Assembly (NCBI GenBank): GCA_016195085.1
Contig: JACQAG010000061.1
Span: forward strand, 1-64,000
Reading direction: 5' to 3'
From: Pseudomonadota bacterium
Lineage (GTDB): Bacteria; Pseudomonadota; Alphaproteobacteria; SHVZ01
DNA length: 64,000 bases
This document shows positions 5,761 to 9,355 of the stretch, piece by piece. The position numbers and the translations under genes were made by a program. The notes beneath the pieces are model-generated. The model was not told the origin of the DNA. It did not search any database and worked only from the letters and a program-made list of their open reading frames with translations. Position 1 is the stretch's first letter. Every line of letters begins with the position of its first letter.

Positions 5761-6717
5761 CTAGAGGCTCCTCGAGATGAACATGAGCAGCGCCCCAAGC
5801 AAGCCGAGCATCAAGGCGACGCTGAGGAAATTCGCGACCCTGAACACCCGCATCTTGGCAATCACGGTCTCAAACAGCGCCAAGAGCGCGCCGCCGACCG
5901 CGAGCTTGGCCACAAAGGCGGCGACACCGAAGAGATAGGCTGCCGGTTCGGCGCCGGCCTCAACCAAGCCCCAAGGCGCGAAGATGCAGGATATGAGCGA
6001 AAGATACAGGAGCAGCTTCAGCGAGGCCGCGAGCTCGATCACCGCCAGATGCCGACCGGAATACTCCAGCACCATGGCTTCGTGCACCATTGTGAGCTCG
6101 AGATGCGTGGCCGGATTGTCGACGGGAATGCGGGCGTTCTCGGCGATGGCGACGATGATCAGGCCGACCAGCACCAGGCCGAGCGAGATGCGCAAGCCCA
6201 CATGCGCCGACAGCATCACGGTCGAAATGGTGGAGAGCTGCGTCGACCGGGCGATCAGCGCCAGGGTGAAGATGATCATCAGCATCGCCGGCTCGGCCAG
6301 CGAGGCGATCATCATCTCGCGGCTGGAGCCGATGCCGCCGAAGCTCGTGCCCACGTCCATGCCGGCGAGCGCCAGGAAAAAGCGAACGCTGCCAAGGAGG
6401 GCGGCGATGGCGATGAGGTCGGCGGCCCAGCTGAACATGAGGCCTCTGGCGAAGGTCGGCACCAGAGCCGCCGCCACCCAGGTCGCAGCGAAGATCAGGT
6501 AGGGTGTCACCCGGAAGAGCCATGAAGCGTTGTCGGCGAGCACGACCTCTTTGTTGAGCAGCCGCACGAGATCCAGATAGGGCTGAACCATCGGCGGGCC
6601 CTGCCGGCGCAAGAGACGCGCCTTGACCTTGCGGATAAAGCCGGTGAGCAGCGGCGCCAGCAGGAGCACCAGGAACATCTGGGCGCCCTGGACGGCGAGG
6701 TCGACGATCACGGCCAT
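5761..6717 (-). CDS. hyfC: HyfC/HycD/NuoH-like membrane anchor subunit
   Basis: 318 residues with about eight hydrophobic segments. NuoH/HycD features are visible: RLLRRQGPPMVQPYLDLVRLL near residue 36, ENARIPVDNPATHLELT near 200, and the following MVHEAM. This subunit links the peripheral redox arm to the membrane arm, and in complex I it forms the quinone entry channel. The ATG at 6717 overlaps the end of hyfB by 10 bases; much longer in-frame starts would lie wholly inside hyfB and are rejected. The acidic residues of the channel region are retained, so ion coupling is plausible. Confidence 0.92.
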   Translation of the reverse strand: MAVIVDLAVQGAQMFLVLLLAPLLTGFIRKVKARLLRRQGPPMVQPYLDLVRLLNKEVVLADNASWLFRVTPYLIFAATWVAAALVPTFARGLMFSWAADLIAIAALLGSVRFFLALAGMDVGTSFGGIGSSREMMIASLAEPAMLMIIFTLALIARSTQLSTISTVMLSAHVGLRISLGLVLVGLIIVAIAENARIPVDNPATHLELTMVHEAMVLEYSGRHLAVIELAASLKLLLYLSLISCIFAPWGLVEAGAEPAAYLFGVAAFVAKLAVGGALLALFETVIAKMRVFRVANFLSVALMLGLLGALLMFISRSL

Positions 6718-8717
6718 AGCCCGACCACCAGGAGGAGCACGATGAGGGCGGCGAAGACGAGGCTGAGGTAGCGGCGGATGGTCTGGAACTGCAGGTAGTT
6801 GAGGCGATCGGCGATGGCGCTGACGCCGGTCGCCACCGGCGCGTAGAGCGCGTCCCAGACGAGGTCTCTCAGATCGACATGCATCCGCGCCGGCCGGCGA
6901 TCGCCGGGGGGCGCCATTTCCACGTGCTCGCGGGCCCGAAAGACGACCGTGCCGAACACGCGCCGGATCGGCTGGGCGAAGCTGCCCGAGGTGTACTGCG
7001 TGATTGGGCCGGTCCCTGGATAACCGCAACCCCACGCAGCACCACGGCGGAGCGCGTGCGAGGCGATGCGGTGGATGGCATAGATCGCGAACGAAGCCGA
7101 CACGGCGATGAACACAAAGACGAGCAAGCCGTTGTAGGAGCTGCGGGCCTCGGCGATCGGCACGATCGAGAGCCACGGCACCACGCTCTGGACCGGCATC
7201 TGATCGCCGACGAGGGCCTGGATGACCGGCCTCAGGCCGTCGATGACGAGGCCCGGCAGAACGCCGGCAAAGAGGCAGAGTGCCGCAAACGCGTACATGG
7301 CGGCGAGCGAGAACCGGTCGACCTCATGTGCCTCGGCGGCTGCCGGCGTTCGCGGCCGGCCGAGAAAGGTGACGCCGAACGCCTTGACGAAGCAGGCCGC
7401 GGCCAAGGCGGCCGACAGCGCCAACAGCGCGCCGACGGCGGGGACCAGCACCTTGAGGCCCCACTGCGGCAGATCGGGACTCTGCAGGATCGCCTGGAAC
7501 GTCAGCCATTCCGAGACGAAACCGTTGAGCGGCGGCAGGGCTGAAATGGCCACGCAGCCGACCAGAAACGCGAAGGCCGTGTGTGGCATCCGGTGGATGA
7601 GGCCGCCGAGATGCTCCATGTCGCGCTCGCCGGTTGCCGTCAGCACCGCACCCGAGCCGAAGAAGAGCAGGCTCTTGAAGATCGAGTGGTTGAATACGTG
7701 GAAGAGTGCCGCGGTCAGAGCGAGGGCCGCCGCCCAGCCCACGTGGTTTGCCTCGAAGGCCAAGGTGAGACCGAGGCCGATATAGATGATGCCGATGTTC
7801 TCGACCGTATGGTAGGCGAGCAGGCGCTTCAGGTCGTGCTGCATGAGGGCGTAGAGAACGCCCAGCGCCGAGGTGGCACCGCCGAGCGCCAGCACGACCA
7901 TCGCCCACCACCATTCCGGCGGTCCGAGAAGGTCGAGGACGATGCGCACGAACCCGTAGACCGCGACCTTGGTCATGACGCCGCTCATCAAGGCCGAGAC
8001 GTGGCTGGGTGCGGCCGGATGGGCGAGCGGCAGCCAGACATGGAGGGGCACCAGGCCCGCCTTGGAGCCGGCGCCGAGGAGGACCAGCGCCAGCACCAGC
8101 CCCGAGAACGCCGGGGCGAGATGGTTGGCGCGCATCTGGGTGAAGTCGTAGGCGCCTTCCGGGCCGGCCAGGAGCCCGAAGGCGAGCAGGAGGCAGAGCG
8201 TGCCGAAGCTCGCCATGAGGAGATAGATGTAGCCGGCCCGCGCGTTCTCGCTGACGCGGTGGTGGGTCATCACCAAGGCCCAGGACGTGAGCGACATGAA
8301 CTCCCAGGACATGAGGAACGTGAACGCATCGTCGGCCAGGACGACGAGGTTCATGCCCGCGAGGAATGCCGGAAAGAACGGCAGCACCCGGTGCGGAGCG
8401 GTCTCGTGGCGCCCGTAGCCGAGCCCGTAGAGGCTGGCCGCGGCGCTGCCGAGATCGACCACGATCAGGAAGAAGGCGGCGAGCGCGTCCAGACGGAAAT
8501 GCGCGCCCTGCCAGGGGAGGCCCAGCGGCAGGACCAGCCCTGCCTCAGGCGCATCGCCGAGGAGGTGAGCGAGTGCCGCGGTGCCGGCGAGCGCGCAGGC
8601 AAGGAAGCTCGCCCCATAGACGATCGGCCTCGCAACGGCCGATCGCCCGATCGCCACGGCCGATGCCGCAACGCCCAGCATGACCGCCACGCACGACAAT
8701 ACGACCACGGCCGACAT
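6708..8717 (-). CDS. hyfB: HyfB-like antiporter-type membrane subunit
   Basis: 669 residues, the first gene of the six-gene operon. It has an NuoL-like core: SWEFMSLTSWALV near residue 150 with the conserved Glu, LLGAGSKAGLVPLHVWLPLAHP near 232, and KSLLFFGSGAVL near 370, plus the C-terminal extension typical of HyfB/HycC. The ATG at 8717 was chosen because longer in-frame starts run into the inverted-repeat element upstream. Operon order B-C-E-F-G-I matches hydrogenase-4 clusters, but hyfA, hyfD and hyfH (ferredoxins and the third antiporter) and maturation genes are absent. The promoter must lie in or beyond the element at 8728-9051. Confidence 0.9.
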   Translation of the reverse strand: MSAVVVLSCVAVMLGVAASAVAIGRSAVARPIVYGASFLACALAGTAALAHLLGDAPEAGLVLPLGLPWQGAHFRLDALAAFFLIVVDLGSAAASLYGLGYGRHETAPHRVLPFFPAFLAGMNLVVLADDAFTFLMSWEFMSLTSWALVMTHHRVSENARAGYIYLLMASFGTLCLLLAFGLLAGPEGAYDFTQMRANHLAPAFSGLVLALVLLGAGSKAGLVPLHVWLPLAHPAAPSHVSALMSGVMTKVAVYGFVRIVLDLLGPPEWWWAMVVLALGGATSALGVLYALMQHDLKRLLAYHTVENIGIIYIGLGLTLAFEANHVGWAAALALTAALFHVFNHSIFKSLLFFGSGAVLTATGERDMEHLGGLIHRMPHTAFAFLVGCVAISALPPLNGFVSEWLTFQAILQSPDLPQWGLKVLVPAVGALLALSAALAAACFVKAFGVTFLGRPRTPAAAEAHEVDRFSLAAMYAFAALCLFAGVLPGLVIDGLRPVIQALVGDQMPVQSVVPWLSIVPIAEARSSYNGLLVFVFIAVSASFAIYAIHRIASHALRRGAAWGCGYPGTGPITQYTSGSFAQPIRRVFGTVVFRAREHVEMAPPGDRRPARMHVDLRDLVWDALYAPVATGVSAIADRLNYLQFQTIRRYLSLVFAALIVLLLVVGLWP

Positions 8718-8727
8718 CGCGCCCCAC

Positions 8728-9051
8728 CCTAGCCAGTATTTCTCCCACGGATCGGGAGCAGCGTCGCGCTGCGCGAGGCGCCCCGCAAGGAGCGGGTCGA
8801 AAAGCGTAGCAGAGCTACGGTTGAGACCCGCGACGATGTCGGGCGCCCCGCGCGGCGCGACCCGAAGGGATGGGCTCCTGAGCTCACATGCCGCGTCAAG
8901 CCGCTCGCCGGGGGAGGAGCGAGGAGGGGGTGGTCTCCACCCCCTCCTAAATCCCACCCCCGATGCTGGGCATCGCTCTTCGCGGCTTTCCTCGCCTGTG
9001 AGCTCATGAGTCCCATCGCTGCCCCGATCCGTGGGAGAAATACCGGCTAGG
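8728..9051. repeat. About 320-bp element with 35-nt terminal inverted repeats
   Basis: Positions 8728-8763 and the reverse complement of 9017-9051 agree over about 35 nt with one substitution (A versus G at 8735) and one single-base length difference. A second nested pair lies inside: 8872-8888 against 8997-9014. A third structure is a perfect 12-bp hairpin with a TCT loop at 8922-8948. No convincing gene lies inside, and I saw no clear target-site duplication. The right arm overlaps the stop codon of the XRE gene and the left arm ends about 10 bases before the hyfB start. It looks like a non-autonomous, MITE-like or REP-like element. Confidence 0.6.
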
Positions 9052-9355
9052 CCGCTCGATGCACCGGCACCTTCTTGCTTTTAGGTTTGTTGGTCTTCCG
9101 GCCCGGAGCCGGCGACTGCAGCCGCACTCCGCGGCCGCCGCCCTGGCTCGCGGCCCCTTCGTTGATGAGCTCGATCCCGGCGGCATCGAGTGCGGCGACC
9201 AGCTTCATCAGCGAGTCGACGTTGCCGCGGATCACGCCGTTGCTGGCTTCCATGCGTTGAATCGTCGGCACCGAAAGGCGCGACAACTCTGCCAGTTCTC
9301 GCTGGTCGATGCTCAGCAAGGCTCGAGCGGCACGTAATTGACCGGCACTTATCAT
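9047..9355 (-). CDS. XRE-family helix-turn-helix regulator
   Basis: 102 residues. An XRE/Cro helix-turn-helix occupies about residues 3-56 (QLRAARALLSIDQRELAELS, then VPTIQRMEAS as recognition helix). A short helical part with Ala-Gly-Ile-Glu-Leu follows, then a basic, Pro/Lys-rich tail. This architecture is common in alphaproteobacterial one-domain regulators. The gene is upstream of and codirectional with the hyf-like operon and back-to-back with sdhC, so it could control either. Its stop codon lies within the right arm of the inverted-repeat element. No operator is obvious. Confidence 0.8.
   Translation of the reverse strand: MISAGQLRAARALLSIDQRELAELSRLSVPTIQRMEASNGVIRGNVDSLMKLVAALDAAGIELINEGAASQGGGRGVRLQSPAPGRKTNKPKSKKVPVHRAA

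Follow-up and report, generated by a model that had tools for sequence, protein, structure and literature searches.

The junction between an XRE/HTH regulator gene and a hyfB-like gene in the window (the whole stretch of 64,000 nucleotides analysed here) is occupied by a gene-free copy of a mobile DNA, best bounded as CTAG...CTAG (322 bp, 8729-9050) and about 270 bp long without a second repeat nested in it. The DNA is present in multiple copies with defined ends, orthologous sites without it exist, and the same fold recurs in distant bacteria with compensatory base changes in most pairs, conserved bases in the internal loops and a symmetry between its two arms. It is probably a non-autonomous mobile element, which would insert mostly at YTAR sites (here CTAG) and would be moved by a transposase acting in trans on its terminal inverted repeats.

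The fold of positions 8720-9060 has a predicted energy of -240.7 kcal/mol, compared with -152.4 +/- 6 for 100 dinucleotide shuffles (z = -14.7), and is therefore far beyond chance. Most of the architecture given in a preliminary description of this DNA is borne out, including the 35-nt inverted ends, whose ungapped core spans 29 nt (8728-8756/9023-9051) with 97% complementarity, a second inverted pair inside (8872-8891/8994-9013, 85%), which forms the base of arm 2, and a perfect 12-bp hairpin. The absence of a gene from the element was also correctly noted, as it contains only open reading frames of the mechanical kind. The nested palindromes reported there exist too, but that account did not recognise that part of them, including the 12-bp hairpin, makes up a second, independent repeat. 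A covariance model of the element matches the interval 8729-9050 on both strands, and the parts are listed in Table 1.

Table 1. The element, its parts and the two adjoining genes (window coordinates).
Feature	Position	Strand	Basis
hyfB-like gene, downstream of element	6708..8717	-	similarity to annotated hyfB
Whole element	8729..9050	.	own-genome copies, alignment, covariance model match
Left CTAG junction (target; TA or CTAG duplication)	8729..8732	.	junctions of sister copies
Terminal stem, left half (terminal inverted repeat)	8729..8762	+	inverted-repeat and pairing analysis
Arm 1, long hairpin with purine-rich internal loops	8763..8861	+	fold, pairing in copies
Small CC-GAA-GG hairpin between arms	8862..8868	+	pairing in copies
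Arm 2, like reverse complement of arm 1, holds nested repeat	8869..9017	+	
Nested 52-nt palindromic repeat, separate family	8908..8959	+	absent from five sister copies; solo elsewhere; flipped in C59
Terminal stem, right half; its TAG is the XRE stop codon (minus strand)	9018..9050	+	
XRE/HTH regulator gene, ends at element edge	9047..9355	-	Pfam HTH_3 just below cut-off; annotated Rhizobium homologue

A BLAST search of the own genome (95 contigs) with the 324-bp unit of the preliminary description returned 51 matches, which fall into two sets, one for the unit at large and one of about 30 short matches confined to about bases 179-235. The covariance model resolves 21 rows at 12 places, six of which hold full-length copies (C61, the window copy, and C55, C5, C47, C75 and C71), and the remaining six, among them C5:8248-8453, are partial or rearranged. 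The further copies that the preliminary description proposed to look for thus exist. Its reading as an inserted element holds, given these copies and the element-free orthologous junctions described below; the case named there as refuting, a sequence present here in every relative and absent elsewhere, does not apply. Two of the partial places, at contig edges of C55 and C6, share one set of variant ends and probably represent the two halves of one copy split by the assembly. Assembly breaks inside the element are seen at L111:1-165, at L114:1-276 and at contig ends of genome G309 (L229-L233), and copy numbers in draft genomes are therefore probably too low.

The 52-nt inner hairpin is a second repeat of a separate family, nested in the element. 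It is missing from the five other full copies, which read CTCG-ACCGATGC at this point, occurs solo at numerous further sites (66 rows, counting those on the reverse strand), and is inverted in copy C59. By eye, many further copies lie at the centre of other palindromic repeats, such as cgtcATGCCCGG...CCGGGCATcca, which resemble the CGTC-tagged REPs described in the available excerpt of PMC3733652. At least two other types of palindromic repeat have the 52-nt unit at their centre (L017-L030 and L064-L084, by eye), including a ccctctccc...gggagaggg repeat and CGTC-tagged REP-like units, as though the unit favoured hairpins for its target. A third module, a further hairpin of about 24 nt, GGTCCGACGAGGGTAGGAACCCTCGTGGAC, is found in arm 1 of some own copies (L113, L111, L114, and L096 from about 2898), where others have GACGACGTC.

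BLAST initially suggested a species-specific element, as the 324-bp unit was found in three of 60 genomes including the own one, the other two matches scoring 40-41 bits, but this is contradicted by covariance searches of the class and the phylum. An exact two-ended pattern, run against a genome collection described as covering 84,980 species, located one further organism, MAG PL23b_bin.38, whose 273-bp copy has the same overall fold with many stems changed. The model built from this copy and five own copies matched 40 of 385 alphaproteobacterial genomes (own included), distributed over 34 of 276 genera and, by our own count, 28 numbered families. The match spans positions 1-270 in 38 of these 40 genomes; G189 and G338 have partial matches only, and the evidence is weak in G251 (E 2.8e-9) and G338 (8e-6). 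In a draw from the phylum, 20 of 398 genomes were matched, ten of them outside Alphaproteobacteria; the two draws overlap and stricter filters were used, so that these counts are lower bounds. Members also reside on plasmids of Pseudomonas aeruginosa PA83, Azotobacter chroococcum, Halomonas sp. PA16-9 and Nitratireductor rhodophyticola, and on the P. aeruginosa plasmid (L287:2500-2770) the element lies between two same-strand genes and adjoins the end of the first. By sequence, plasmids yielded nothing for the own body or for L150, short pieces for L147, and most of the length for L175 and L183. No match was found in phages with L175 as the only query, nor in viral contigs with the exact two-ended pattern. 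The end pattern was found 38 times in G309 and 32 times in G188, which suggests some twenty copies in each.

Copies of the element fold as one terminal stem with two arms, and the pairing is maintained through extensive sequence change. In the own genome, 29 of the 111 pairs predicted for the six full copies are changed on both sides in some sequence, and 27 of 112 show at least two Watson-Crick types by our own count. In a model-fitted alignment of 31 loci on both strands (61 rows), which leans towards its own fold, 93.3% of cells are paired, 109 of 110 pairs are changed on both sides, and the covariation score is 0.896; shifting the partners by 1-3 columns lowers it to 0.10-0.12. With one strand per locus, a plain MAFFT alignment of these 31 loci gives two-sided changes in 82 of 87 pairs. 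The element is also reverse-complement symmetric: the model is matched from end to end (1-270) by all 31 loci, on both strands in 30 and on a single strand in L160, and when arm 1 is set against the reverse complement of arm 2, 62% of unpaired positions agree across 29 loci, compared with 33% for shuffled columns. G and A predominate among the conserved bases of the loops and could pair with each other as G·A.

Pairing of this kind might in principle persist unselected, if template switching or gene conversion copied one arm onto the other and the compensatory changes were mutational in nature. Long near-perfect inverted repeats are known substrates for arm-to-arm correction, and the own copies contain blocks of adjacent changes matched on both arms; even so, we regard this explanation as unlikely, though one to be taken seriously. 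It does not account for the greater conservation of unpaired than of paired columns (0.675 vs 0.578, p 0.002, in the fitted alignment of both strands). Nor does it agree with ten recent copies in G309, where nine of the 14 pairs that vary do so on a single side, one pair occurs as A-T in three copies, as G·T in six and as G-C in one, and one copy mixes the arms of two types. To judge from their sequences, the G309 copies recombine, and the one-sided changes together with the mixed-arm copy indicate that the arms are not corrected at once. Long-term pairing is thus best read as selection, with arm-to-arm correction possible at a low rate.

Selection might act on a transcript that folds, with a role such as RNase III cutting or protection of an upstream mRNA, as proposed for other bacterial MITEs. 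The strong fold, the conserved internal loops, and the location between same-strand genes both here and on the P. aeruginosa plasmid are in keeping with a structured RNA. However, if RNA were the paired form and only one strand were used, G·U should be tolerated far better than A·C, and here the former is hardly commoner than the latter, an argument that insertion in both orientations would weaken. Across 31 loci, one strand each, there are 3054 Watson-Crick, 124 G·T, 92 A·C and 120 other combinations, and in the plain unfitted alignment 2374 Watson-Crick, 106 G·U, 71 A·C and 137 other; the strand was picked by model score, which favours G·U and makes the slight G·T excess hard to read. This near parity points to pairing kept in DNA or for both strands. 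Rfam 15 likewise contains no counterpart: ten matches in window positions 8500-9300 had E values of 0.02 or worse and were all below gathering scores, and searches of 20 member loci returned only a flanking tRNA and a flanking mmgR, with none for the element. An RNA role is accordingly doubtful. In the reading of the DNA as a mobile element, the terminal stem and the two mirror-image arms would instead be filtered by selection as a structure of DNA or of both strands, and the fold would be kept because copies that lose it do not spread in the long run.

The terminal repeats provide the link to a candidate transposase. In the full own copies the ends are about 24 nt long, vary between copies and match within a copy, apart from one substitution in the window copy; element copies read CTAG followed by CCCnnATTTCTC. 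The preliminary description had suggested looking for a transposase with matching ends, and a pattern search allowing two mismatches revealed a 1648-bp insertion sequence in the own genome (L085:1954-3601), ended by CTAG followed by CCCGGATTTCTCACACTG, which encodes a 457-aa IS1380-family transposase (NF033539, 405 bits; PF13701). Three of six IS1380-family insertion sequences on named plasmids are ended by CTAG followed by CCCGCATTTCTCA (L134, L137 and, with a single left-end mismatch, L132); no inverted repeat was obtained for another of the six, L133. The remaining two, IS1380A copies of Acetobacter, have TCGA followed by CGCGGATTTCTCACA at their clearer end, and the left end of an element copy in a genome of the same family (L143) shares 22 nt with the own insertion sequence. 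The similar ends of the own and the plasmid insertion sequences indicate that the local type of element carries IS1380-like ends, which an IS1380-family enzyme may recognise. Five other IS1380 matches occur in the own genome, two of them over the cut-off, and no element-like ends were seen in the three loci scanned. Two further repeat ends were observed in passing. One, CTAGCCCG(T/C)ATTTCTCAGTGCGCCCC, is IS-like, is common to the end of L089 and the start of L092, and probably belongs to a multi-copy insertion sequence missing from the assembly; the other is a high-copy repeat end in G284, represented by eight near-identical single ends, seven of them identical (TAGAGCAATTCCGATCCAACGTGAA).

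IS1380-type terminal repeats were found for the local end type only, and other lineages carry other ends. Junctions are CTAG/CTAG in five of the six full own copies and TTAG/CTAA in C5a, and TTAG...CTAA also occurs at L156, L157, L160, L162, L175 and L180. Such junctions are as expected if TA is duplicated at TTAA; a direct repeat of 4 bp does not fit. The available excerpt of PMC3281130 gives repeats of 5 bp for IS1247, an IS1380-family element, and of 2 bp for the IS5/IS427 group, so that the mobilising enzyme may not be of the IS1380 family. Different junctions altogether are seen at L168, L169, L184 and L185. The presence of an IS1380 transposase was considered as a predictor of end type and rejected, as no correlation emerged: a transposase over the cut-off is present in the own genome, in two of eight other genomes with CTAGCCC ends and in six of 18 with AGAGC-like ends, counted in drafts that may miss copies. 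None of 13 scanned IS1380 loci (10 from genomes with AGAGC-like ends) carries an end of the AGAGC type; six have a TAGCCC/TAACCC-like end on one or both sides, two have another end and five have none. The AGAGC type is thus probably served by something else. A search for AGAGC ends in 10 genomes, eight of which have them, listed element-sized pairs and no pair at the 1-2.5 kb expected of an insertion sequence, and the window contains no pattern of this type. A mobiliser of the IS630 type was also considered and set aside; the own genome encodes one DDE_3 protein.

The similarity of its ends to those of IS1380 insertion sequences might suggest an ordinary MITE, formed when an IS1380 element lost its interior, in which the palindrome has no importance. 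This is improbable, since a related body is found with several unrelated end types. When members with other ends are compared with the own copy, unpaired inner positions are common at 0.60 (shuffled columns 0.28) and paired positions at 0.48 (null 0.29), a comparison in which a crude rule placed L157 in the IS1380 group though its ends differ; the body is therefore related regardless of the ends. Moreover, none of the 51 listed BLAST matches falls inside the own IS1380 copy (C46:15453-17100).

Homologues of the XRE and hyfB genes are adjacent in Rhizobium plasmids and in two further genomes. At four junctions that lack the element (L116, L117, L129 and L130), which supply the empty sites that the preliminary description had proposed to look for, the XRE stop and the hyfB start share 4 nt, the start codons in two of the four being our own reading of the sequence. 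As the genes overlap in these relatives and stand apart here, insertion appears to have parted them, and entry would have been at the XRE stop codon. The motif CTAG is palindromic, and the relatives are too distant for a base-exact empty site. The preliminary description held that one arm covers the XRE stop and the other reaches the hyfB start; the former is correct, the stop being the TAG of the right CTAG, but the left arm ends 11 nt short of the hyfB start, whose ATG is preceded by GGTGGGG. The effect of the element at this junction is most likely incidental. Its position exactly between XRE and hyfB might suggest a local regulatory structure of this operon, an explanation that is hardly tenable and effectively ruled out by eleven other places in the genome and by its absence from the four orthologous junctions.

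A special targeting of stop codons was also considered and rejected. Ten of 18 element loci (eight copies, the split one counted once, the own insertion sequence and nine single ends) end a gene at TAG by our own reading of the surroundings, compared with about 8-9 of the 29 other CTAGs in the window. The whole window contains 31 CTAGs, where 202 are expected from base composition (about 6.5 times rarer), and since the motif is rare and often tolerated at stops, the excess represents no clear difference.

Descriptions of bacterial MITEs have usually been based on sequence and confined to one genus at a time. The present element behaves as a MITE and is closest in kind to ERIC, NEMIS and bcr1, together with CIR among alphaproteobacteria. 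In the open-licence literature searched, neither an IS1380-ended MITE nor the two-arm fold was found described. According to the available excerpts of PMC2229807 and PMC3733652, ERIC, NEMIS/Correia, bcr1 and RUP are likewise small, gene-free, multi-copy and mostly intergenic, often with TA ends, and the whole unit forms a strong hairpin. The MITEs in the excerpt of PMC2229807 are about 100-200 bp long and named for particular genera, whereas the present element is about 270 bp, consists of two mirror-image arms on a stem, and is found in 28 numbered families as well as outside the class. CIR elements of Caulobacter and Brucella are also alphaproteobacterial and intergenic and have two stem-loop arms, but as presented in that excerpt they are about 110 bp long, with linker-joined arms that lack end-to-end pairing and with a GANTC mark; the 270-bp unit with its terminal stem is set apart from them by description.

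The CGTC-tagged REPs in the excerpt of PMC3733652 are mainly alphaproteobacterial palindromes, and arm 2 of the element has a conserved unpaired CGTC beside a hairpin. The same text mentions REP dimers inside longer palindromes in A. variabilis and H. neapolitanus. REPs are, however, 20-40 bp long with 8-9 bp stems, and that excerpt describes no terminal-repeat system with a conserved two-arm fold; the arms here measure about 100 nt without the nested repeat, and the unpaired CGTC is a resemblance only. MITEPye1 of Paracoccus yeei is an alphaproteobacterial MITE with terminal repeats of an insertion-sequence family and a strong predicted fold, but in the portion of PMC11578231 available it has IS1182-type ends, belongs to one species and comes with no report of covariation. 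Part of the IS1380 family shares the terminal CTAG and CCCnnATTTCTC of the element, which differs in its length of about 270 bp and in having no transposase.

Beyond the mobile nature of the individual copies, it is conceivable, and we propose it tentatively, that the members form a superfamily across Pseudomonadota, in which a two-arm body is selected as folded DNA readable from either strand and the terminal repeats have been swapped repeatedly for those of different transposase families. If so, the element would live at the expense of insertion sequences, constant in shape but variable in the ends by which it is moved. If the fold is selected, its members would provide a large natural set of compensated variants for determining which DNA shape a transposase or host factor reads, and for asking whether unrelated transposases can move one and the same body. 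Whereas a sequence search of 59 related genomes yielded only two very weak matches, the structure model located the element across the class and beyond, and the present case suggests that gene junctions in operons, such as that of this hyf operon, can hold such inserts unannotated.
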